Positions 17,483 through 35,125 of a DNA stretch of 39,245 nucleotides are shown piece after piece (positions within the stretch are counted from its first letter, which is position 1; each line of letters starts with the position of its first letter). Both the position numbers and the translations under genes were made by a program. Source of the DNA: Deltaproteobacteria bacterium (GTDB lineage Bacteria > Desulfobacterota > DSM-4660 > Desulfatiglandales > Desulfatiglandaceae). The stretch lies in contig JAFDGR010000008.1 in assembly GCA_019309145.1 (NCBI GenBank), positions 1 through 39,245 on the forward strand, written 5' to 3'. A model generated the notes under the pieces. The model made no database searches. It was given only the letters and a program-made list of their open reading frames with translations, and had not been told where the DNA came from.

Positions 17483-19255
17483 ATGAAATCGCTCACCCCT
17501 GTTTCTCTCCTCATCGTCATCTCTTTGCTGGTCCTGTTTCTGCAATCCCCGCAAACAAGAACAGGACTCAAGTATCCCGACCGGTGCATGACCTGCCATC
17601 ATGCGTTCAATGATCCGGGAAAATCTCATGCCCTTGAGTCCCTGGGTTGTGCTTCCTGTCATCTGGGCAATCCCTATTCACTGGACGAGAAAAGGGCTCA
17701 TGTAGGCATGATCAAGAACCCCGGGGATTTGCGGGTGGTGGACAAAACTTGTGGAAAGCCCGCATGCCATCCGCAAATCGCTTCCCGGGTGAAACGCAGC
17801 ATCATGGCAACAAACCGCGGGATCCTTCGGTCGATTCAAATGCACTGGGTCCCCTTCCAAGCAACAAGGACAAGTGTGCCGGAACTTCTTGGCCCTGCTG
17901 CTCCCACCAATCCCGCTCTTGATCATTACCGGAAAATGTGCGGAGGATGCCATCTGTGGAAAAAGCGCGGGGATCACGCTGAAGAGATCGGGTTGCGCGG
18001 CGGCGGATGCAGTGACTGCCATATCCCTGATACGGATTTCTCCGGGAAAACGCCTGGAAAGGAACAGGTCCACCCGGCTATTACCATTCACATTCCCATT
18101 GCAAATTGTGTGAAATGCCACAACCGATCCGCCCGGATAGGGCTCTCCTACAGAGGGCATTATGAATCTGCCGGCTATGGAACACCCTACGAAGGGGCGG
18201 GACTGAGCAAAAGGCGCCTCTCAGGACGGCGGTTTTTTCTCCAGGTGGACGCAGACGTGCATTTCGGAAAGGCGGGCATGTCGTGCATTGACTGCCACAC
18301 CAGTACCGGGTTGATGGGAGACGGGAACGAGTATGATCAAATGGGCAAGCAGGTGGATATTACCTGCAGCGCGTGTCACGATCAGATCTTCCGGGATGAC
18401 CGTGGCACGCAATCCCTTGCATCCATCCTGTTTAACGCAAACGACCGGGTCCCGCACGCGCGGGGAAGGCGTATAGGGTTCACCAGGAAGGGAACCCCCC
18501 TTTACAATCTTCAGCTCGTGGGCGGACACCCTATTTTGTTTCGTAAGAAAGACGGTAAGCCTCTGGAGCTTCAAAGTGATTCAGGAAAAAGGGCTTACCA
18601 CACGCTTCCAGGGCACGAACGGCTCTCCTGTCAGTCCTGTCACAGTTCCTGGATGCCGCAATGCTACGGGTGTCATCTTGCCTACAACAAGCAAGAGCTG
18701 CAGAAGGACTGGCTCACCGGAACATTGCGCAAAGGGAGGTGGAAGGAGGCGCGTTCCTCTATGCGATTTCTCAAGCCGGCCCTTGGCGTGCGCCACAGCA
18801 GCAAGATCTTTCCTCTTTCTCCTTGCCAGGTATTTCTCCCCGATGCTGTCACGCAACAGAAAATCTTCACGGTTTCAGCTTTTGATCCCCATACAACATT
18901 GCTTCAATCAAGGTCGTGCGTTGACTGCCACGGCGATCCCAAGACCCTTGGCCTGGGAGAGGGGATTCTGTGGATGAAAAACGGCACATGGACCTTCAGG
19001 CCCACCTATGATGCAGCCGCATCACCGCTTGGTATTTCGTTCCCATTGGACGGGGTTATACAGCAGGCGGAAAAACAATCCGAGAATACTATTGCGGAAA
19101 CAGCGAGACCGTTCAACCGGTCCGAGGTGGATCGTATTCTGTCGGTAAACGGCTGCCTCGGGTGCCATAAGCGATATGATGACCCCATTTTTAGGGACTT
19201 CAGCACGAGCCTGAAGGTGTTCAAGGCGAAAGAAGACCTCCCATGCAAGAGATGA
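17483..19255 (+). CDS. dodecaheme c-type cytochrome
   Basis: The 590-residue exported protein has an N-terminal membrane/signal segment (SLLIVISLLVLFLQS) and 11 CXXCH heme motifs (CMTCH, CASCH, CGGCH, CSDCH, CVKCH, CIDCH, CSACH, CQSCH, CYGCH, CVDCH, CLGCH) plus one CX4CH motif (CGKPACH). It should bind up to 12 hemes and move electrons in the periplasm or across the outer membrane. The block CIDCHTSTGLMGDGNEY is shared with the next gene, so the two look like divergent paralogues. A long heme-free region (about residues 400-455) separates the last two motifs. No ribosome site is visible before ATG 17483. The substrate and terminal partner are unknown. Confidence 0.9.
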   Translation: MKSLTPVSLLIVISLLVLFLQSPQTRTGLKYPDRCMTCHHAFNDPGKSHALESLGCASCHLGNPYSLDEKRAHVGMIKNPGDLRVVDKTCGKPACHPQIASRVKRSIMATNRGILRSIQMHWVPFQATRTSVPELLGPAAPTNPALDHYRKMCGGCHLWKKRGDHAEEIGLRGGGCSDCHIPDTDFSGKTPGKEQVHPAITIHIPIANCVKCHNRSARIGLSYRGHYESAGYGTPYEGAGLSKRRLSGRRFFLQVDADVHFGKAGMSCIDCHTSTGLMGDGNEYDQMGKQVDITCSACHDQIFRDDRGTQSLASILFNANDRVPHARGRRIGFTRKGTPLYNLQLVGGHPILFRKKDGKPLELQSDSGKRAYHTLPGHERLSCQSCHSSWMPQCYGCHLAYNKQELQKDWLTGTLRKGRWKEARSSMRFLKPALGVRHSSKIFPLSPCQVFLPDAVTQQKIFTVSAFDPHTTLLQSRSCVDCHGDPKTLGLGEGILWMKNGTWTFRPTYDAAASPLGISFPLDGVIQQAEKQSENTIAETARPFNRSEVDRILSVNGCLGCHKRYDDPIFRDFSTSLKVFKAKEDLPCKR

Positions 19256-20964
19256 CGAAAAGCATCCTGCGTTTTTTCCTTTTCTTTTTTCTCCTCTTTG
19301 GGCCTTCCACTGCCTCCGGGGAAATGAAGCAAGGGAGCGAGGACTACAGTCATTGTCTTGCATGCCACCAGGGCATTCAATCCACCAGCAGAAACCATAA
19401 AGGCCTTTCCTGCGTCTCCTGCCATGTCAGGCCCGGAGACCGAAGAAAGGATGCGCTCAAGACCCACGAGGTTATTGTCAGGAATCCGTCACTCCCTTCC
19501 TCAGTAAGGACTTTTTGTGGAGAATGCCATAACGAGGAGATCCAAAGGGTTTCCACGTCGCTCCATTCCACCCTTGCCGGTGTTCTTAATCAGACCCGGT
19601 ACTTGTGGGGTGCGCAGAAGACGGCCGCTCCGGCCATTTTTGGCTTGGGAGAATCATTAGAACCGTTGCCCACGGTGGATCAGGACGTCTACCCTGACAA
19701 ACCCGGCCTGCTGGTAGATGATTTCCTCCGGCGGCGATGTCTGCGGTGCCACATACACGGGAAAGGGATCGGTGGAAAAGGGCTTTATCGGGCGGGCGGT
19801 TGCGCTGCTTGCCATGTCCTGTATGGGGATGATGGTGTTTATCGGGGGAAAGATCGGGCCATTCCAAAACACGCAAAGGGGTACCCTATCACCCATTCCT
19901 TCACCACACGCATTCCCAACACCCAGTGCCTCCATTGCCATAATCACAATCATGTGGGGGGGGATTATGAAGGGCTTTTTGAGCACGATTACAGCTCCAC
20001 CTATCGTTCCCCCATTATTGACGGAAAACCTGTACCCTCGCTATACGGGGCATGGTATCATCACCTGGCAAAGGATATTCATGCTGAAAAGGGCCTCTGG
20101 TGTATTGATTGCCATCACCAGAAAAATGTCATGGGAGACGGAAAGATCTACAGCTATGCGCTCCAGGTTCCCACGCGTACCTGTGAGGGATGTCACGGCG
20201 GATTTGGAGAAAAGCATCCTGTAACCAGTGGGATTCCCTTGCGCGCAGCCGGTGGAAAAGTGACGCGCAGGATACCGCCTTTTTCAAAGAAGCCGGTGGC
20301 TCATCGAATTCCTGAGCACGCACGGGTTCGATGTAGTGCGTGCCACGCCCAGTGGACGTTCCTCGATTTCGGGTTGAGCGTGATCCGTGAAGACGCGTCG
20401 CACGGGTATAAATGGTATGGTCTGACTGCCCAGGGCGATCCTTCGCTTGAGCTGAAACTCGAAGAGTCAATGGGAAGTCCAGTGGGCGCCCCTGTTTTTT
20501 CCAAGGATTTTATTTCAGGAGAAAGAAGGCCGGGAATTTGGTCCCAGGGATGGCGGTTCAGGCGGTGGGAGTGGTTCGTGCTGGGTGTTGACCATGAGGA
20601 CCGCTACACTCTCCTGCGGCCCCTTTACCAATATCTCGTCAGTTATGTTGACCGGCTGGGAAACGTTGTCCTGGACAGTGTTGTCCCCGGGAGGGGAGAT
20701 GGAAGCGGCCGTGGGTGGGCCTGGGCCCCGTATGTCCCTCATACAATCGCGCCGGTCGGGCGTCAATGTGATTCCTGCCACCGGAATCCCGTTGCAGCAG
20801 GGCTTGCAGCAAAGAAGGGGTTCAGTCCAGATACGCGCTTGAGGATCCCTTCTCCGCCTCCTGTTGCGTCCATGCGACTCCTGAACAAGCATGAAACAGA
20901 GAGACTCCTCCACCCCTCAAGACGCTGGGGAAGAGAGCGGTTGAAATCCCTTATGAGCAGATAA
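19252..20964 (+). CDS. decaheme c-type cytochrome
   Basis: The 570-residue exported protein carries a signal peptide (SILRFFLFFFLLFGPSTASG) and ten CXXCH motifs (CLACH, CVSCH, CGECH, CLRCH, CAACH, CLHCH, CIDCH, CEGCH, CSACH, CDSCH). The block CIDCHHQKNVMGDGKIY mirrors the preceding cytochrome. A heme-poor region (about residues 390-510) with GIWSQGWRFRRWEWFVLG may be a non-heme fold. ATG 19252 overlaps the upstream stop as ATGA, which suggests translational coupling; ATG 19243 is an alternative. The 3' end overlaps the opposite M24 gene by 14 bp. No porin or quinol oxidase subunit is next to it. Confidence 0.9.
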   Translation: MTKSILRFFLFFFLLFGPSTASGEMKQGSEDYSHCLACHQGIQSTSRNHKGLSCVSCHVRPGDRRKDALKTHEVIVRNPSLPSSVRTFCGECHNEEIQRVSTSLHSTLAGVLNQTRYLWGAQKTAAPAIFGLGESLEPLPTVDQDVYPDKPGLLVDDFLRRRCLRCHIHGKGIGGKGLYRAGGCAACHVLYGDDGVYRGKDRAIPKHAKGYPITHSFTTRIPNTQCLHCHNHNHVGGDYEGLFEHDYSSTYRSPIIDGKPVPSLYGAWYHHLAKDIHAEKGLWCIDCHHQKNVMGDGKIYSYALQVPTRTCEGCHGGFGEKHPVTSGIPLRAAGGKVTRRIPPFSKKPVAHRIPEHARVRCSACHAQWTFLDFGLSVIREDASHGYKWYGLTAQGDPSLELKLEESMGSPVGAPVFSKDFISGERRPGIWSQGWRFRRWEWFVLGVDHEDRYTLLRPLYQYLVSYVDRLGNVVLDSVVPGRGDGSGRGWAWAPYVPHTIAPVGRQCDSCHRNPVAAGLAAKKGFSPDTRLRIPSPPPVASMRLLNKHETERLLHPSRRWGRERLKSLMSR

Positions 20965-22567: not shown

Positions 22568-23089
22568 ATGTTAACTGAAGAAGGAATTATTGAAAAAGTG
22601 TACGGGAACCGGGCCACGGTGCTTCTCAGGAGGAGTTCGGCGTGCGCCCATTGTGAATCTCAAGGGGCTTGCGAAGTAGCGGATGAGAAGAACATGCACG
22701 TGGTGCTGGCAAATGAACTCCACGCCGCTGTAGGAGACCGTGTCGAGATCAGCCTTCCTTCCCACTCCTTGTTGAAACTCTCTCTGGTGGTCTACTTTGT
22801 TCCGGTCGTGGCCCTGGTCATCGGGGCAGCCCTCGGGGACGCGTGGAGCCCCCTTTTTGACGTAAAAGCGGCCACCGGTGCCATCATTATAGGCGGGGTG
22901 GGCCTCTTTGGTACCTATTTGCTTATGAAATGGATGAATCGTGTGGCAAGATCAAGGATCGAATACCGGCCACGAATGACCCGTATCATTGATACTGAAC
23001 CCCTTCAACCCGACGATAACAAATCAGACCACACTGGAGACACCTTCTCGACTCATTCAACGCCTGTTCCTCGGACAGGCCAAGAATGA
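22568..23089 (+). CDS. rseC: RseC/MucC-family membrane protein
   Basis: The 173-residue protein has an N-terminal Cys-containing part (SSACAHCESQGACEV, the C-x2-C-x5-C pattern of the family), then two membrane helices (about 75-97 and 102-122) and a polar tail. RseC-type proteins are linked to Rnf/Rsx complexes and to reduction of SoxR in gamma-proteobacteria. Its position next to the rnf operon here supports an Rnf-related role, for example in maturation or redox sensing. It is convergent with rnfB and overlaps its 3' end by 104 bp. The tail beyond residue 140 (LQPDDNKSDHTGD...) is not conserved-looking. Confidence 0.85.
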   Translation: MLTEEGIIEKVYGNRATVLLRRSSACAHCESQGACEVADEKNMHVVLANELHAAVGDRVEISLPSHSLLKLSLVVYFVPVVALVIGAALGDAWSPLFDVKAATGAIIIGGVGLFGTYLLMKWMNRVARSRIEYRPRMTRIIDTEPLQPDDNKSDHTGDTFSTHSTPVPRTGQE

Positions 23090-25052
23090 TTTCACGGGAA
23101 GGATCATTGATCCTTTCAGATTCAGGAATCTCCGCCATTTTCTGCCGTGGGAACGGTTTTACCGGTTCCAGTTCATTGAGGCTCAGGACTTCAGTGAATT
23201 TTCGAATCATATTTGGCGGGGCCTCAACCGGTTCTCCGGTCAGAAAGCGGTGCACAGAACTGGCAGCCCTTCTCCCTGACCCGATGGCCTCAACAACGGC
23301 CCGGTAATCGGCCGTGGCCTCGCCGGGTCGAAAGATTCCCTTGTCTTCCCTGGCAAAAGGCCCGGGGTAAGGGGTCAGGGTTTCCCACGAAACCGGTGTT
23401 CTTGGTGCGGCTTCCTCCTCCGCTTCTTTTTCGCTCGCCTGCGGTACATAAATAAGTTCCGGAAACCTGCCGGCCCCGGTCAGGAGAAGATCAACGGAGA
23501 TCTCTTCCAGGGAGTCTTCTTGTCGGTCGAGGTGTTCGATCGTGACCCGTTGCACTGCAGTTCCCGTGCCCATCATTTTCATGACCGTGCTTTGGAACAG
23601 AAACTGGATGCCCTTTTCTTTCGCGCTCTTCATCACGTTTTCAGGGAAGGAGACTTCCTGCTCAGTGCCCCGGAAGACCAGGTACACTGCTTTTGCTCCC
23701 TCATTCATGCAGATCTCCGCGGCCTGTATGGCGGCATTTCCGCCGCCTAGGATCATCACCTGCTTCCCGGGTTGGGGTTTCTTTCCGCGCCGGTAATCGA
23801 GGAGGAAGTCAACCAGGATCTGGACACCGGGAAGCGGGCGCACATCCTCATCCCGTTGCTTTTCCCGGACAAGAGTGTCCCATCCGCCGGTCGCGACAAA
23901 GACTGCCCGGAATCCTTCTGCCAGGAGCGCGTCAACAGATATGTCTTTCCCCAATTTTTTTCCTGTTTGCGCTTCAATACCTGCCTCCAGGATGCCCTCA
24001 ATATCCCAGTCCAGGACCTTTCTCGGAAGCCTGGATTCAGGGAGCCCCAGGTGGAGAATTCCTCCCAGGTGGTCTGCAGCTTCGTAGACCGTCACGTCAT
24101 GTCCCAATCGATTCAGGGCATAGGCCGCGGTCAGGCCTTCTGCTCCTCCCCCGATAACAGCTGCACGGCACTGGGTTTCAGGGGCCCTGGGGACCTGGAC
24201 ATGTTGCCCGGAGGCCATTTCCTGGTCTGTTGCAAATCGTTTCAGGCTGTTTATGCCGACCGGTTCATCCACCAGGTTCCGTCGGCAGGCCTCTTCACAC
24301 GGCTCCACACAAATTCGCCCACAGACGCTGGGAAACGGGTTTGACTCTTTGATAATCCTGACTGCCTCCAGGTAGTTTCCATTGGAAATTTCCCTGATAT
24401 AGGCCGGGATGTCGATTCCGGCCGGGCAGTTACGCTGGCACGGGGCGGTACATTGATCAGTGGTGTATTCGCGCTGAATACGGCGTGTATTTGAGGTAAG
24501 CGTGATGATATGCCTGGGGCAGACCCTCTCACAGGTTCCACATCCCGTGCACAGGTCCTCATCTACCACGGGAAGATGATCGGGCCCCATGGAAAGCGCT
24601 CCGAAAGGGCAGGCCCGCACACAGGTGCCGAGCCCGATACACCCGATCGGGCAGATTTTCGATCCACCATTGAGCAGCATGGCGGCCCGGCAGTCGTTAT
24701 ATCCGTCGTAAATGTATTTCAGGTCCGCTTTTTCAAGCCCGTAGGTACATCCAGGCCTGGCAATATCCGGCTCCCTTTCCACGATTTCGACACCCATTAC
24801 CGCGGCTATCGCAGCATGCACCTCAGGGGTACATACCACGCAGGCATTCGGAGGGGCCTTTCCTGTCGCGATTGCCTGGGCCGACCCGCTGCATCCGGGA
24901 TACCCACATCCCCCGCAGTTGGCACCTGGAAGCAGTTCTTCAATCTCCAGGATTTTTGGATCTATATAAACATAGAAAATCTTAGAGGCAATGGCGAGGC
25001 CAAGACCCGCCACAAGTCCGATTCCACCGATAGCCAGTAGGGCTGCGATCAT
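22986..25052 (-). CDS. rnfB: RnfB fused to GltD-like FAD/NAD(P) oxidoreductase
   Basis: Residues 1-180 are RnfB: a membrane anchor (1-27), the Cys cluster in GANCGGCGYPGC, then two 4Fe-4S sets (C134, C138, C144, C148 and C168, C171, C174, C178). From about residue 197 it continues as a glutamate-synthase small-subunit-like module: a Fe-S entry domain (CTAPCQRNCPAGIDIPAY, CGRICVEPCEEACRR), an FAD-binding GGGAEG (301-306) and an NAD(P)-binding GGGNAA (436-441). It ends with CLQCGLIC. The 688 residues are twice the normal RnfB size. The fusion would couple ferredoxin, the Rnf membrane core and NAD(P)H directly. It is the last gene of the operon and starts 47 bp after rnfA; GGAG lies 7 nt before ATG 25052. 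Confidence 0.93.
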   Translation of the reverse strand: MIAALLAIGGIGLVAGLGLAIASKIFYVYIDPKILEIEELLPGANCGGCGYPGCSGSAQAIATGKAPPNACVVCTPEVHAAIAAVMGVEIVEREPDIARPGCTYGLEKADLKYIYDGYNDCRAAMLLNGGSKICPIGCIGLGTCVRACPFGALSMGPDHLPVVDEDLCTGCGTCERVCPRHIITLTSNTRRIQREYTTDQCTAPCQRNCPAGIDIPAYIREISNGNYLEAVRIIKESNPFPSVCGRICVEPCEEACRRNLVDEPVGINSLKRFATDQEMASGQHVQVPRAPETQCRAAVIGGGAEGLTAAYALNRLGHDVTVYEAADHLGGILHLGLPESRLPRKVLDWDIEGILEAGIEAQTGKKLGKDISVDALLAEGFRAVFVATGGWDTLVREKQRDEDVRPLPGVQILVDFLLDYRRGKKPQPGKQVMILGGGNAAIQAAEICMNEGAKAVYLVFRGTEQEVSFPENVMKSAKEKGIQFLFQSTVMKMMGTGTAVQRVTIEHLDRQEDSLEEISVDLLLTGAGRFPELIYVPQASEKEAEEEAAPRTPVSWETLTPYPGPFAREDKGIFRPGEATADYRAVVEAIGSGRRAASSVHRFLTGEPVEAPPNMIRKFTEVLSLNELEPVKPFPRQKMAEIPESERINDPSREIILGLSEEQALNESRRCLQCGLICYRRVEGVQYQ

Positions 25053-25099: not shown

Positions 25100-25678
25100 C
25101 TAATGGACCAGACCCGCAAACCCAAGAAATGCCAAGGCCAGAAGTCCGACGGTCACCAGTCCAATGGAGGTACCGCGAAGGTGAACGGGGATCGGCGCTA
25201 CGGCATAGCGTTCCCGGATTCCCGTCAGGATAATGAGGGCCAATCCATATCCCACACTGGCGGCAAAGGCATACACCAGGGTCTTCACGAAATCATATTC
25301 GTTCTGCACGGCAAGGATGGCAATACCAAGCACGGCGCAGTTCGTGGTGATGAGGGGAAGATAGATCCCCAGAGCCTGGTAGAGTGCAGGAACGGATTTT
25401 TGTAAAAACATCTCGACGAACTGTACAAGGGCGGCAATGACCAGGATAAAGGCAATGGTTTCGAGGTACTCGAGCTCGTAGGGAACGAGGATGTATGTCT
25501 CAACGATCCACGTAGCACCGCTGGCCATCACCACGACAAAGACCACCGCCATTGCCATACCAATGGCCGTATCAATCCGGGTTGAACACCCCAGGAAAGG
25601 GCAGTTTCCCAGGTACCGTGCCAGGATAATATTGTTCACGAACATGGCACCAACAATCAAGAGCAGGTAATCAGACAT
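25100..25678 (-). CDS. rnfA: Rnf complex membrane subunit RnfA
   Basis: The 192-residue protein has six hydrophobic segments and the family sequences FVNNIILARYLGNCPFLGCS and LPLITTNCAVLG. The Cys residues in these two segments fit the membrane-embedded 2Fe-2S site shared by RnfA and RnfE. The pump uses electron flow between ferredoxin and NAD to move Na+ or H+. A ribosome site (GGATGTGAG) precedes ATG 25678. It follows rnfE by 29 bp. Confidence 0.97.
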   Translation of the reverse strand: MSDYLLLIVGAMFVNNIILARYLGNCPFLGCSTRIDTAIGMAMAVVFVVVMASGATWIVETYILVPYELEYLETIAFILVIAALVQFVEMFLQKSVPALYQALGIYLPLITTNCAVLGIAILAVQNEYDFVKTLVYAFAASVGYGLALIILTGIRERYAVAPIPVHLRGTSIGLVTVGLLALAFLGFAGLVH

Positions 25679-25707: not shown

Positions 25708-26307
25708 TTAATGTCCTTTCTGCCTGGAACTGATGAAATTCATGAGCCCAAGGATGAGACCGAGACACAAAAACGCTCCCGGAGGCTTGAGCATGATGGC
25801 GAACGGTTCAAATGATGACCACATAATGGACGCCCCGAAAAAGGTACCGTTCCCAATGATTTCGCGAATAGACCCCAAAACAGCCAGGGATATGGTAAAT
25901 CCCAGGCCCATGCCAAGTCCGTCGGCAATAGAAGGGAGAACACCGTTTTTGGATGCAAAGGCCTCGGCCCGGCCAAGGATAATACAGTTGACCACGATGA
26001 GCGGGATGAATATGCCGAGGATTTTGTAAAGTGGATAAAAGTATGCCTGCATCACCAGTTCCACAATGACCACAAAAGAGGCAATGACGACGATAAAAGC
26101 CGCTATTCTCACTTTGTTGGGGATAATGTTTCGCAGAAGAGATATGAGGATATTCGAACACACGAGCACAAAGGTGGTTGCCAGCCCCATGCCGACTCCG
26201 TTTTTTCCGGCTGTGGTGACCGCCAGGGTGGGGCAAAGACCGAGGACCAACCGAAACGGCGGGATTTCTTTCCAGAGCCCCTTGGTAAACTCTTGAACAA
26301 CGCCCAT
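25708..26307 (-). CDS. rnfE: Rnf complex membrane subunit RnfE
   Basis: This 199-residue RnfA homologue opens VQEFTKGLWKEIPPFRLVLG and contains LCPTLAVTT and VNCIILGRAEAFA, with the two Cys of the intramembrane Fe-S site. It has six membrane segments. AGGAGG (26315-26320) lies 7 nt before ATG 26307, which overlaps the rnfG stop as TGATG. A TTG at 26310 is in frame but overlaps that stop and fits the ribosome site less well. Confidence 0.97.
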   Translation of the reverse strand: MGVVQEFTKGLWKEIPPFRLVLGLCPTLAVTTAGKNGVGMGLATTFVLVCSNILISLLRNIIPNKVRIAAFIVVIASFVVIVELVMQAYFYPLYKILGIFIPLIVVNCIILGRAEAFASKNGVLPSIADGLGMGLGFTISLAVLGSIREIIGNGTFFGASIMWSSFEPFAIMLKPPGAFLCLGLILGLMNFISSRQKGH

Positions 26308-26888
26308 CAACCAACCTCCTTTTTGACCTTGGGAAATAGTTCGAGGGCCTTTCTGACGGCTTCAACTACTCCCTCACTGGAGTGGGTTGCCCCACTCACT
26401 GAATCGATTTTTCCGCCTTTTGCCGAGAGGTTCAGATCGGGGGAAAGCGTGAATCCCTTGAACTGCTTGGTAAAGGCGGGTTCCACAATCCTTGCTCCCA
26501 GGCCCGGTGTTTCCGAGTGCGTCATAATACTGATACCGATTACTTTTCCCCCGGGATCGAGTCCGATCATCACGTCAATAAGACCATGATACCCGGTCGC
26601 GGCAGCGCTGTAGGCAAGGCCCACTATTTTTCCCCCTTTTTTCGCGGGGAAAATATTCTTTTCCAGCGGCTTTCCCTTTTCATCCTTCCCAAGCTTGATG
26701 ACGATCCTATCCCTGATGGGATCATTATCATAAGAGCTCAAGACCGCCTTTATGGACGGCTCCTGCACATATTTCAGGAGTTGATATTCTCGCGGGGCTT
26801 TTGTGGCCTTATTCGTATAGGACAGCACCAGGCCTGAGGCACCGCAAATGACAGTCAACACCACGACCATCTTGATTAAGTCACGCAA
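26307..26888 (-). CDS. rnfG: Rnf complex flavoprotein subunit RnfG
   Basis: RnfG carries a covalently bound FMN on its periplasmic side. The attachment motif SGATHSS is present near the C-terminus (about residue 170). A single membrane helix (VVVLTVICGASGLVLSY) anchors the N-terminus. The start is uncertain: no ATG is at the usual position. TTG 26888, 10 nt after GGGGAGG, gives 193 residues and a normal N-terminus. TTG 26930 or ATG 26870 are alternatives. It overlaps the end of rnfD by 8 bp. Confidence 0.93.
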   Translation of the reverse strand: MRDLIKMVVVLTVICGASGLVLSYTNKATKAPREYQLLKYVQEPSIKAVLSSYDNDPIRDRIVIKLGKDEKGKPLEKNIFPAKKGGKIVGLAYSAAATGYHGLIDVMIGLDPGGKVIGISIMTHSETPGLGARIVEPAFTKQFKGFTLSPDLNLSAKGGKIDSVSGATHSSEGVVEAVRKALELFPKVKKEVG

Positions 26889-27858
26889 TTTCTTTGATCC
26901 TCCCCACTGTTCTAGGTTTGATACGATCAAGCAAGGGTGTTGCCGCGTTCATCAAGAGAATGGCAAACGGTACTCCTTCCACATAGCTTCCCCATAAGCG
27001 GATAATCATCGTGAGAACCCCGCAACCGATTCCATAGAGGATCATGCCGGGAGTGGTCACCGGGCAGGTACCTTTTTCAGGGGCAAGGAAGAAAGCCCCA
27101 AGAAGCATCCACCCCGAAAGGAGGTGAAAGGTGGGGGAAGCATACGTCTCAGGATCAATGCGCTGGAAGATCAATGCAAAGATCCATGCGGATGCAATAA
27201 ACGAGAAAGGAATATGCCAGGTGATGCGCCTCCGGTAAAGAAGATAGGCCCCTCCGAGGAGGATGGCAAGGACACAGGCAGTGCCGATTTCAGCGGGCAC
27301 ATTTCCCAGGAAAAGATCCTTCCAGGGAAGATCGGCGATTTCTTCCACACCGCTGTCTTTCAGGGTAATGAGGGCTGGATCCGAGAGAAATTCACCGGGT
27401 TCGAGCAGGAACCTGGGATCGGGTATGGGGAAATTGGTCAGGATTTCCTTATAGGATATGTGGAGGAATGCCCATCCGACGATGGCGGTATTGAACGGAT
27501 GATTCCCGAGGCCACCAAACAACTGTTTTCCTACCAGAATGGCAATAAATGCCCCCAAAACAGGCACCCACCAGGGGTTCTCGGACGTGAGAATAAGACC
27601 TAGCAGAATCCCGGTTATCAGGGCGCTCCCGTCCCCAATCCGGACTTCCCGGCCGATGGCCTTCTGCCAGAGGAACTCGGTAACCATGGCCGTTACCGCG
27701 CTCAAGGCGACTATCAGCAGCGCGGACCATCCGAAAAAGAGCCACCCGGCGAAAATGACGGGGATAAGTGCCAATACTGTATCGAAATGCATCTTTTTCA
27801 GGGTGTCCCCTGAATGAAGATGGGGTGGCATAGAAACGTAGAATTCGGGTTTTTTCAT
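26881..27858 (-). CDS. rnfD: Rnf complex membrane subunit RnfD
   Basis: The 325-residue protein aligns with RnfD/NqrB along its length: SMPPHLHSGDTLKKMHFDT at the start, GKQLFGGLGNHPFNTA in the middle and LLMNAATPLLDRIKPR at the end. It has about eight hydrophobic segments. The loop where RnfD normally carries a covalent FMN on Thr in a GATPL-like motif reads SDPALITLKDSGVEE here, and I see no such motif. Either the flavin is missing or it is bound otherwise. GAGGAA lies upstream of ATG 27858, which overlaps the rnfC stop as ATGA. Confidence 0.95.
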   Translation of the reverse strand: MKKPEFYVSMPPHLHSGDTLKKMHFDTVLALIPVIFAGWLFFGWSALLIVALSAVTAMVTEFLWQKAIGREVRIGDGSALITGILLGLILTSENPWWVPVLGAFIAILVGKQLFGGLGNHPFNTAIVGWAFLHISYKEILTNFPIPDPRFLLEPGEFLSDPALITLKDSGVEEIADLPWKDLFLGNVPAEIGTACVLAILLGGAYLLYRRRITWHIPFSFIASAWIFALIFQRIDPETYASPTFHLLSGWMLLGAFFLAPEKGTCPVTTPGMILYGIGCGVLTMIIRLWGSYVEGVPFAILLMNAATPLLDRIKPRTVGRIKEIA

Positions 27859-29189
27859 GATTCTTTCCTCGCGGCTTCGATCTCTCGTTTGCCGAAACAA
27901 ATGAGCTGCACCATTGGACGGTTTACCGGGCAGACATAGGCGCATATGCCACATTCAATACAGGAAAAGATATCCATCCTTTCGGCCACATCGAATTTTC
28001 CGTATTCGCAATGCTTAGTGAGTTCGTTTGGCAGGAGCTTCATGGGGCAGTGGAGGACACAATACCCACAATTCATGCAGGGCTCATTGGAATAATGTAT
28101 TATTTCTTGCTCTGTTTGCAGAATAATCGAGTCGATTTCCTGTGTTACCGGGACGTCGAGCCGGTGGAGCGCTGTCCCCAGGAACGGGCCTCCGCAGAGT
28201 ACCTTGGCCAGTCCTTCCCTTGAAAGGGAGAGAGCCTCGAGAATATCCTCAATCAGCGTACCTTCCCTGACGCGCACCAGGGTGTCAATACCCGAAGAAG
28301 GCGCCGTGATCTGGACCACCACGTCCAGAGAGGGAATTTCGCCGCGAGCCGCCCCACGAACTTTCAGGGCCGTTGTGACATCAACAACAACAGTGCCAAA
28401 TTCCCTGCCACCTTCCGAGTTTGGAGGGAGTTCCTGGCCGGTCAAAAACGGGATCAGGAGGGGTTCGAGTCCAATGGGGTATATGTTCGGGCAAAAGACA
28501 GGCTCTACTCCGCGCTCGCGAAGTCCCTGCAACAAGTCATCGGCCAGATCGGTTCCCTTTGCGACCGCGAAAAAGACCCGGGAGGCTCCTGTCGTGTCTT
28601 TGAGCACAGGAATGCTCTCAAGGAGCTCATTCTTGTAAAGCCCGATCATTGCTTTTCGCAGCCAGATGCCCGGCTGCCGGTCAATGCCGTTTATAATAAG
28701 AGAATGGATGGGCTTTTCGAGTGCGGGAGAGAAAGAAGCAAACGCGGATGGAACCAGGTCCGGTTTCCGTAAGCGCAGTGCCAGGGGTAGAGGAGAAGGA
28801 TCAACCTCCCTGATGTCTCCCGCCTGGATCCACCGCATGAGCTCCGGGAGGTCTTTCTGCGCAACATCATCTCTCGGGGGAGGAGTGTCCCCTTCCGGTG
28901 ATTCAATAACCAAAGCCGGTCCTTCATCCCCGAAACCTGTCGGCCACGAGGAAACGGCAGAAGCCCGTCCCGAGACCGAAGCGAGTAATGGCGGAAACCA
29001 TTTTTGAGGCCCTTTGGCTATGATCTGGCCTGCCTGCACATGATCCCCGGGGGAGACAATGGGGATCATTTTCCCGAACCGGGTAACAAGCGGCAGGACA
29101 ACACGTTCTGGGAGTGGGAGGTTTTCAATTTCAGCATTCGCATAACGGCCGTTTTCTGTTGGGAAGGAGATTCCTTTCAGTCTTTTCAT
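27855..29189 (-). CDS. rnfC: Rnf complex NADH-side subunit RnfC
   Basis: RnfC is the soluble subunit facing NAD. The 444 residues show a barrel-sandwich N-terminus (PLPERVVLPLVTRFGKMIP, GDHVQAGQIIA), a flavin/NADH-type SLBB core and, near the end, two 4Fe-4S motifs: CMNCGYCVLHCP and CIECGICAYVCP. Usual RnfC proteins are of similar size. ATG 29189 was chosen because the protein then begins as usual (MKRLKGISFPTENG). It is the first gene of rnfCDGEAB, an order common in anaerobes. Confidence 0.96.
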   Translation of the reverse strand: MKRLKGISFPTENGRYANAEIENLPLPERVVLPLVTRFGKMIPIVSPGDHVQAGQIIAKGPQKWFPPLLASVSGRASAVSSWPTGFGDEGPALVIESPEGDTPPPRDDVAQKDLPELMRWIQAGDIREVDPSPLPLALRLRKPDLVPSAFASFSPALEKPIHSLIINGIDRQPGIWLRKAMIGLYKNELLESIPVLKDTTGASRVFFAVAKGTDLADDLLQGLRERGVEPVFCPNIYPIGLEPLLIPFLTGQELPPNSEGGREFGTVVVDVTTALKVRGAARGEIPSLDVVVQITAPSSGIDTLVRVREGTLIEDILEALSLSREGLAKVLCGGPFLGTALHRLDVPVTQEIDSIILQTEQEIIHYSNEPCMNCGYCVLHCPMKLLPNELTKHCEYGKFDVAERMDIFSCIECGICAYVCPVNRPMVQLICFGKREIEAARKES

Positions 29190-29298
29190 ACAGTCACCAA
29201 AATGATTCCTAGAAAATGATGTTCCGCAGAACAAACTCGGACGTATTGAAAAATATCTATCTGCTCCCGATATCTTGTGAAATCCGGAACGTATGGCC

Positions 29299-29327
29299 AT
29301 TTACAGAAATCTAACCAGGTTTGTCAA
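29299..29327 (-). promoter_or_regulatory. candidate promoter of the rnf operon
   Basis: On the minus strand TTGACA (29327-29322) is followed after 17 bp by GTAAAT (29304-29299). Transcription would start about 100 bp before rnfC. Confidence 0.5.
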
Positions 29328-32525: not shown

Positions 32526-33401
32526 ATGCATTACGAAGGCCCTATCTACAGACCGCCCAGCGAGGCGGACAGCCTGCTTATCCAGGCAACCGTTGGTTGC
32601 CCTCACAATAAGTGCACGTTCTGCATGGTATACAAACAAGGCCCTCCTTTCAGGGTACGCCCGGTTAAGGAAATAGAAAAAGACCTGGACGAAGCAAGAC
32701 GCCTGTATGGTTCGAGAATAAAGAGCCTCTTTTTCCCGGCGGGAAATACTATTGCCATGCCCACGGCTGAACTGGCTGAAATATGCGCCTATGCAAAGTC
32801 CGTTTTCCCGGGTCTGGAGCGAATTACCGTTTATGGCTCGTCACGGTATATATACGACAAAGGGCCCGAGGCATTACGAGTGCTTCGGGAAAGCGGGTTG
32901 AGTCGCATCCACGTGGGGTTTGAAAGCGGAGACGATTTGGTTCTCCAGAGGATCAAGAAGGGAGCTGATGCGGCCACGCAGATCCAGGCCGGTATCTGGG
33001 TGCGGGAGGCCGGCATCGAGCTCAGCGAGTATGTGATCCTCGGAATTGGGGGCCGGGATCGAAGCCGTGCACATGCTCTCCACAGTGCATCAGCTTTGAA
33101 CAAAATAGATCCTCACTTTATCCGGCTGCGCACGTTTCTCCCGAAAATCAACACACTCCTCTTGCACCAGATTCAAAAGGGAAGATTTCAGGTGCTTTCT
33201 CCCCATGAGGCATTGCGGGAAACGAGGCTGCTTATCGAGCACCTGGAAGTGACTTCTGACATCCTGAGCGACCACTACACCAACTACGTGAATATCCATG
33301 GGAAGATGCCTCGGGACAAAGATCAAATGCTCCGGGTGATCGATGAATATCTTACCCGGGATGAATCTTTTTTCAGGCCTGTCTACATCGGAACCCAGTA
33401 A
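32526..33401 (+). CDS. radical SAM protein of unknown substrate
   Basis: The 291-residue protein has the 4Fe-4S motif as CPHNKCTFC, that is CX4CX2C instead of the common CX3CX2C, close to the N-terminus (residues 30-38). IHVGFESGDDLVLQRIKKG, in the second half of the barrel, and the glycine-rich VILGIGGRDRS fit a radical SAM barrel. No B12, TRAM or other accessory domain is attached. The substrate cannot be named. ATG 32526 lacks a clear ribosome site; the repeat ends just before it. The 3' end faces an M50 protease gene 7 bp away. Confidence 0.85.
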   Translation: MHYEGPIYRPPSEADSLLIQATVGCPHNKCTFCMVYKQGPPFRVRPVKEIEKDLDEARRLYGSRIKSLFFPAGNTIAMPTAELAEICAYAKSVFPGLERITVYGSSRYIYDKGPEALRVLRESGLSRIHVGFESGDDLVLQRIKKGADAATQIQAGIWVREAGIELSEYVILGIGGRDRSRAHALHSASALNKIDPHFIRLRTFLPKINTLLLHQIQKGRFQVLSPHEALRETRLLIEHLEVTSDILSDHYTNYVNIHGKMPRDKDQMLRVIDEYLTRDESFFRPVYIGTQ

Positions 33402-34245: not shown

Positions 34246-34267
34246 CTATCGTCGGGAGGTGATGTTC

Positions 34268-35125
34268 ATGACGCTGAGGAGGGCTGATTTTGCAGGATCC
34301 TGGTATCCGGGGGAGGAGAGGGAGTGCAGGAAATCCATCGAAATGTTTGAAATGGATTTCGAACCCTGCCCGGTGCCGGAAAAAGATGTCCTGGGCGGCA
34401 TTGTGCCCCATGCAGGCTGGGTTTTCTCCGGGTCCATTGCCTGTAACGTCATTCAATGTCTGGGTTCGCAGAAATCATGCGACACGTGTCTCGTTTTCGG
34501 CAGGCATCTCCATCCATCGAGCCCTCAGTATATTATGGCAGATGGATCGTGGGAGACCCCTTTCGGATCAATAGAAATAGATGTGGAAGTTGCCAAAGCC
34601 CTTATGACGGATTTTTCATTTGTCATCGAAACACCGGACAGGCATGATCAGGACAATACTATTGAATTACAGCTCCCCTTCATCAAATACTTTATGCCCG
34701 ACGCAAAGATTGTCCCCATGGGGGTTCCGCCCGCTCCCACCACTCTGGAAATAGGGACGAGGGCGGCGCAGATCTGCAGGGAAAAGGGACGAAACGCCCT
34801 TGTCTTAGGCTCAACGGACCTGACACACTATGGGTACAACTATGGCTTCTTGCCGAAAGGGACCGGGGAGCAGGCCCTGGAGTGGGTCAAAACGGTCAAT
34901 GATCGGCGGGTCGTGGACCTGATGGTCGAGATGGATGACGATCAGGTGATAAAAGAAGCACTGAACAATGCGAATGCCTGCTGCTCAGGAGCTGCTTCAG
35001 CCGCCATTGCCGCTGCCCGTGAACTGGGTGCGCGGAAGGGGAGGATTGTGAAGTACGCGACGAGCTATGATGTACACCCGGATAATAGCTTTGTGGGGTA
35101 TGTGGGAATTGTTTTTGCCCGTTAG
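34268..35125 (+). CDS. MEMO family protein (AmmeMemoRadiSam protein B type)
   Basis: The 285-residue product opens RRADFAGSWYPG, typical for the family. Likely metal ligands are seen in GIVPHAGWVFSG, GRHLHPSS, HDQDNTIELQLPF and ANACCSGAAS; STDLTHYG is also conserved. MEMO proteins are related to LigB-type dioxygenases and bind iron or copper; in prokaryotes they are usually encoded with AMMECR1 and a radical SAM protein. AMMECR1 is absent here. A radical SAM gene lies 0.9 kb upstream, separated by the M50 gene. The start is ATG 34268, 8 nt from GGGAGG. Confidence 0.9.
   Translation: MTLRRADFAGSWYPGEERECRKSIEMFEMDFEPCPVPEKDVLGGIVPHAGWVFSGSIACNVIQCLGSQKSCDTCLVFGRHLHPSSPQYIMADGSWETPFGSIEIDVEVAKALMTDFSFVIETPDRHDQDNTIELQLPFIKYFMPDAKIVPMGVPPAPTTLEIGTRAAQICREKGRNALVLGSTDLTHYGYNYGFLPKGTGEQALEWVKTVNDRRVVDLMVEMDDDQVIKEALNNANACCSGAASAAIAAARELGARKGRIVKYATSYDVHPDNSFVGYVGIVFAR

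Follow-up and report, generated by a model that had tools for sequence, protein, structure and literature searches.

A fused RnfB-GltD protein in a deltaproteobacterial Rnf2 complex: loss of the predicted NAD(P) site and a possible docking role

The window, by which we mean the whole stretch of 39,245 nucleotides of deltaproteobacterial DNA analysed here, carries on its minus strand a complete rnfCDGEA-B gene set that is closed by rnfB, and this RnfB is continuous with a GltD/NfnB-type module. We put at about even the chance that the protein is an Rnf2 RnfB whose module has ceased to use NAD(P)H and would serve as an Fe-S docking relay in a complex that electrons leave at RnfG. The NAD(P) site, the FMN/NADH loops of RnfC and the FMN motif of RnfD have been lost, as judged from alignments; the donor, the RnfG exit and the acceptor are what we infer. 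The fused architecture itself is already known, being that of the Tol2-type Rnf2 of Desulfobacteraceae (PMC5109826, PMC11887813). What is new is the split of the RnfB-GltD family, recognised from its sequences, into classes with apparently intact and apparently decayed NAD(P) sites. RnfB-GltD proteins now fall into two testable classes, with and without an NADPH site, and formate dehydrogenase is a likely partner of the class without one; if this is true, sulfate reducers and related bacteria would couple the pumping of ions to their formate and ferredoxin pools.

The fusion gene and its protein

The rnfB-gltD gene (22986..25052, minus strand, as are all features of the fusion below) is a single frame of 688 codons with an ATG start, an upstream GGAG and zero internal stops. 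A preliminary description of this DNA had proposed a continuous RnfB-GltD protein of 688 residues, and the uninterrupted frame, the Pfam and PDB matches and the existence of full-length relatives establish that it is real. The full RnfB with an Fe-S entry domain that had been claimed is likewise borne out by the domain search, in which every match is above cut-off: the RnfB FeS domain (PF04060, residues 41-72, 24837..24932), a dicluster 4Fe-4S match at residues 138-184 within the two RnfB 4Fe-4S motifs recognised by Pfam Fer4 models (residues 134-184, 24501..24653; cysteines invariant in 94 fusions), the Fer4_20 Fe-S entry domain (PF14691, E 2.7e-23, residues 200-281, 24210..24455) and Pyr_redox_2 at residues 297-532. 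In its N-terminal half the protein aligns with the RnfB chains of PDB entries 7zc6 and 9eri, and the C-terminal half matches NfnABC, Stn/formate-dehydrogenase-like, NfnB and dihydropyrimidine dehydrogenase (DPD) chains, the best matches to residues 199-685 being 9n5u, 8oh5 and 9bov. The tail (residues 641-674) can be aligned with a segment of the 4ylf chain, RCLQC, that lies at the N-terminus there; the corresponding Fe-S segment of the fusion, CLQCGLIC (residues 671-678, 23019..23042), is thus the counterpart of an N-terminal element of NfnB, placed C-terminally as it also is in NfnABC and the formate-dehydrogenase-like chains. An AlphaFold2 model built with three sequences had a mean pLDDT of 32.5 and was not used.

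An assembly or frameshift artefact was considered and rejected, since the same full-length fusion occurs in many genomes with a low dN/dS. It recurs across the family, order and phylum, with identity falling from 86% to 38%. Relative to its nearest homologue (L036, from deltaproteobacterial MAG B46_G9) the gene as a whole has a dN/dS of 0.06, with a minimum of 0.017 in Fer4_20 and a maximum of 0.14 in the NAD(P) region. The gene is alive and under strong purifying selection. Among 395 genomes drawn evenly from the phylum, about 43 carry the fusion at full length and 127 encode an RnfD that passes the family cut-off, so that the fusion is present in roughly a third of Rnf-bearing genomes. A scan of genome contigs found two relatives only, a plasmid collection yielded no match spanning the full fusion, and the rnf genes of relatives were called by tblastn.

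The glycine loops reported earlier at residues 301-306 and 436-441 are indeed there, as GGGAEG (24135..24152) and GGGNAA (23730..23747). The residues that contact FAD and NADPH we take to be those of the established GltD, NfnB and DPD structures. On this assignment the window protein keeps the FAD-site glycines, E324 and R341, with GPAG changed to GAEG and the Asp of the GD motif replaced by Glu (E578, 23319..23321). At the NADPH site the GGGN loop is kept and the Asp, YRR and EMP positions are lost, YRR reading FRG and GGGN..D reading GGGN..Q. As the loop persists together with one arginine of the pair, weak NAD(P)H binding could still occur.

Two classes of RnfB-GltD fusion

The 94 fusions were aligned and scored for six motifs (GPAG, YGIP, GGGN..D, YRR, GQ and GD), and the scores are bimodal: 43 of the 94 score 4-6 and the other 51 score 0-1, with the window protein at 0. 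In a full-length tree the degenerate and canonical fusions lie on opposite sides of a branch with 100% support, and a tree of Fer4_20, a region outside all six of the motifs, recovers that split with 94% support; a tree of the RnfB part does not cleanly separate the two classes (4 changes). The canonical clade of 43 fusions has a GltD/NfnB-type FAD and NADPH site that is largely intact.

The NAD(P) domain (residues 427-515, 23508..23774) is the least conserved part of the protein within the degenerate clade, with a mean entropy of 2.35 bits versus 1.15 bits in the canonical clade, whereas the 4Fe-4S part of RnfB is better conserved in the degenerate clade (0.78 versus 1.31 bits). Within the clade the Fer4_20 cysteines C201, C205, C209, C248, C252 and C256 are invariant, as are the likely Fe-S cysteines of the tail. 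All 51 members have the FAD contacts G301, G302, G303, G306, E324, G330, G331 and R341, and 50 of the 51 have Glu or Asp at position 578, so that flavin binding is plausible. The NADPH-specific residues N439, D443 and R462 vary freely over the same 51 fusions, and on these alignments NAD(P)H binding is not plausible in the degenerate clade. Q529 has become Arg in 51/51 and E305 is present in 47/51; fixation of these residues argues for a new role and not for decay alone.

These patterns bear on the proposal that the fusion adds a second nucleotide site at the ferredoxin end. The fusion does lie in an Rnf operon and does alter the electron-input end, but beyond the glycine loop its NAD(P) site is incomplete. 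The further suggestion that NADPH or a bifurcating reaction feeds the window Rnf finds no support in a clade in which the NADPH residues drift and the Fe-S ligands are invariant; NADPH input may hold for the canonical sister clade.

A small clade of fused RnfB proteins (L062:8607-10667, L106:2057-4123 and L108:7881-9941) keeps GGGN and GQ and has Cys-Leu-Glu in place of the Tyr-Arg-Arg that supplies the NADPH arginines, which could mean NADH specificity. One genome (G019) has a fusion of this type (L062) and one of the degenerate type (L061) in two separate complete rnf operons.

The exit end of the complex and the genes beside it

Upstream of rnfB on the minus strand lie rnfA (25100..25678) and rnfE (25708..26310), both matching PF02508, rnfG (26307..26930), rnfD (26881..27954, with a likely start at 27858) and rnfC (27855..29300). 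RnfC keeps its Fe-S motifs and is missing the three FMN/NADH loops that its counterparts in 9eri, 7zc6 and 8ahx possess; RnfD has Pro in place of its FMN threonine (SDPALI); RnfG, the only FMN_bind match in the genome, retains the FMN-binding threonine motif SGAT. The same pattern is found across fused operons when they are compared with seven control operons from this phylum in which RnfB is unfused; each control comes from a genome that encodes a fused RnfB as well. The RnfC loops are present in 0/32 fused operons of both kinds versus 7/7 controls, and the RnfD threonine in 4/29 versus 7/7, whereas the RnfG threonine is kept in 26/27 fused operons (Ser in the remaining one) and in 7/7 controls. 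In the Rnf of Clostridium tetanomorphum, FMN is carried on RnfD Thr153 and RnfG Thr164 and electrons pass from RnfB through RnfAE, RnfG, RnfD and RnfC to NAD+ (PMC9588780). With the flavin sites of RnfD and RnfC missing, RnfG should be the last station of the electrons, on the outer side of the membrane, and the textbook route from ferredoxin to NAD+ would seem to be closed to fused Rnf complexes. Delivery of electrons at RnfC, assumed in the preliminary description from standard Rnf, would accordingly not apply to an RnfC without FMN/NADH loops.

An Rnf2 that is still a ferredoxin:NAD+ oxidoreductase, with NAD bound in RnfC or elsewhere through an unrecognised site, is in our estimate improbable. 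It would agree with the drawing of Rnf2 as a link between the ferredoxin and NAD pools in PMC11887813, and the RnfC of the window still gives a weak Complex1_51K match (35.6 bits, the cut-off being 31.2), but it would have to accommodate the disappearance of all three RnfC loops from 32/32 fused operons and of the RnfD threonine from 25/29, when every control keeps both.

Two partial or rearranged rnf relatives were also seen. An RnfC-like match (G000:C377:4808-6238, in L135 and L138) has its N-terminal barrel segment after the NADH/Fe-S part, as if permuted, and at 231 bits scores above the RnfC of the window. At the end of another contig of that genome (C204; L080:7205-8553) there is a second, partial RnfB/RnfA-like pair, whose RnfB frame has an in-frame stop and the remainder of whose cluster is absent from the assembly.

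A gene for a tetra- to octahaem cytochrome heads many fused operons; unlike these, the window operon has no cytochrome gene within it or at its head. Two adjacent multihaem cytochromes c are encoded on the opposite strand about 2 kb beyond rnfB (17483-20964, plus strand), and a homologous pair (11 and 10 CxxCH motifs) occurs in the same order in L059. A firm tie between this pair and the window Rnf was rejected, because the pair is absent beside most relatives' operons. Farther along, the window encodes an AmmeMemoRadiSam system protein B of the MEMO1 family (34259-35125) and, nearby, a radical SAM-like gene (32526-33401).

Some degenerate RnfB proteins are encoded within rnf operons and others by orphan genes, and their neighbours differ from those of canonical ones. 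An fdhA-like, small 4Fe-4S or NuoF-like gene lies within 3.5 kb at 20/32 degenerate versus 0/43 canonical loci, counts that include related genomes and so overstate independence; the small 4Fe-4S gene, labelled FdhB, has no NCBIfam match. At eight loci (L037, L086, L087 and L096-L100) fdhA directly follows rnfB on the same strand at a distance of 17-190 bp. At L086, L087 and L098 the rnf genes end in rnfB and are followed on the same strand by fdhA-like, DRTGG, PHP, ATPase-like and NuoF-GltD genes, which looks like an Rnf operon joined to a bifurcating-type formate dehydrogenase cluster. The FdhA of L087 has a NuoE domain and no Molydop_binding domain, so that formate activity is not assured for it. 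At L126 the order is rnfB, rseC, a 4Fe-4S protein gene, apbE and a formate dehydrogenase in two pieces, a split that would fit a selenocysteine codon. An rseC gene adjoins rnfB at 18/32 degenerate versus 0/43 canonical loci (Fisher p 5e-9, related genomes included), and in the window a rseC/mucC-like gene with a Cys-rich start (PF04246, 22568..23089, plus strand) is convergent with rnfB and overlaps its end by 104 bp. At L065, L071 and L094 an orphan degenerate RnfB-GltD gene, with no other rnf genes adjacent, has a NuoF-like gene next to it in the same orientation.

Given a formate dehydrogenase gene beside rnfB in many relatives, the module probably serves to connect a partner enzyme and not to take electrons from NADPH. 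The window's own operon has neither an fdhA nor a NuoF-like gene next to it, and candidates, homologues of formate dehydrogenase among them, are located elsewhere in the genome, so that the partner in the window organism is a guess. This lack of an adjoining partner gene, together with the eroded NAD(P) domain, would suit a GltD part that persists as a remnant, structural or regulatory, and has no redox function, with ferredoxin donating to the RnfB 4Fe-4S clusters as usual. We consider such a remnant unlikely, to a similar degree as continued NAD+ reduction, in view of the invariance of all cluster ligands, the strongest constraint being on Fer4_20, and the repeated adjacency of degenerate RnfB to dehydrogenase genes.

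Possible electron routes and known systems

Oxidation of NADPH (or NADH) at the GltD module to feed RnfB, alone or by flavin-based bifurcation, is the least probable route, for although the GGGN loop is present, the sister clade has a complete NADPH site and NAD+-binding sites have been described for the large RnfB (PMC5109826), the NADPH residues vary freely in the window's clade, the window itself reads FRG for YRR and GGGN..Q for GGGN..D, and dN/dS peaks in the NAD(P) region.

According to the reading that we prefer, that of a docking relay with exit at RnfG, the decayed GltD module would provide docking and Fe-S, possibly flavin, relay. Ferredoxin would supply it with low-potential electrons, or else a soluble partner, which in many relatives would be a formate dehydrogenase or a NuoF-type enzyme. 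The electrons would then pass to RnfB, across the membrane through RnfA/E and on to the FMN of RnfG, and would be handed over in the periplasm to a cytochrome c or a comparable carrier, an exit also proposed for the Rnf of Methanosarcina acetivorans, with no return through RnfD and RnfC to NAD+. A broader proposal, which we offer tentatively and with the balance of probability against it, is that this is a branch of Rnf2 without pyridine-nucleotide chemistry at either end, in which formate dehydrogenase or a similar soluble dehydrogenase plugs directly into the pump through the decayed module and electrons exit from RnfG to a periplasmic carrier, giving an NAD(P)H-independent ion pump driven by formate or ferredoxin.

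Among the closest known systems is the Rnf2 of Desulfobacula toluolica Tol2 and Desulfococcus multivorans, for which the fused architecture, a changed RnfC and a requirement for a further partner have been described (PMC5109826). Rnf2 is reported to belong to the core genome of Desulfobacteraceae and to be abundant and constitutive in six strains (PMC11887813). The Tol2-type Rnf2 shares with the window an RnfB of about 700 residues with Fe-S clusters and a nucleotide-binding module (688 residues in the window) and an RnfC lacking a working NADH domain (PMC5109826, PMC11887813); the rnf cluster of D. multivorans has a small cytochrome gene (PMC5109826, PMC11887813). In these two papers RnfB is described with NAD+-binding sites and Rnf2 is tied to NAD, whereas in the window's clade the NAD(P) site appears decayed. 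For the degenerate clade, the loss of the RnfD flavin site and the link to formate dehydrogenase we found no description in the largely open-access literature that was searched.

The Rnf of M. acetivorans does not use NAD(P), RnfG being its proposed terminus and a multihaem cytochrome c the acceptor (PMC4023990). It differs from the window complex in being archaeal and in having no GltD module described on RnfB, and a multihaem cytochrome c co-transcribed with rnf, as in Methanosarcina, is not found in the window operon. The NfnB/NfnL and GltD flavoproteins (4ylf, 5jca) and dihydropyrimidine dehydrogenase have the Fer4_20, FAD and NAD(P) Rossmann domains of the window protein, which differs from this group in its fusion to RnfB, its C-terminal RCLQC, the loss of NADPH residues, GQ changed to GR and the FAD-site Asp changed to Glu. 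The NfnABC and Stn/formate-dehydrogenase-like chains (9n5u, 8oh5, 9bov) have the same C-terminal CLxCG segment as the window protein. In 8oh5 and 9bov the GltD domain forms part of a chain named formate dehydrogenase or molybdopterin oxidoreductase, whereas in the window it is carried by an Rnf subunit of the membrane; where there is an fdhA, it is a gene of its own.
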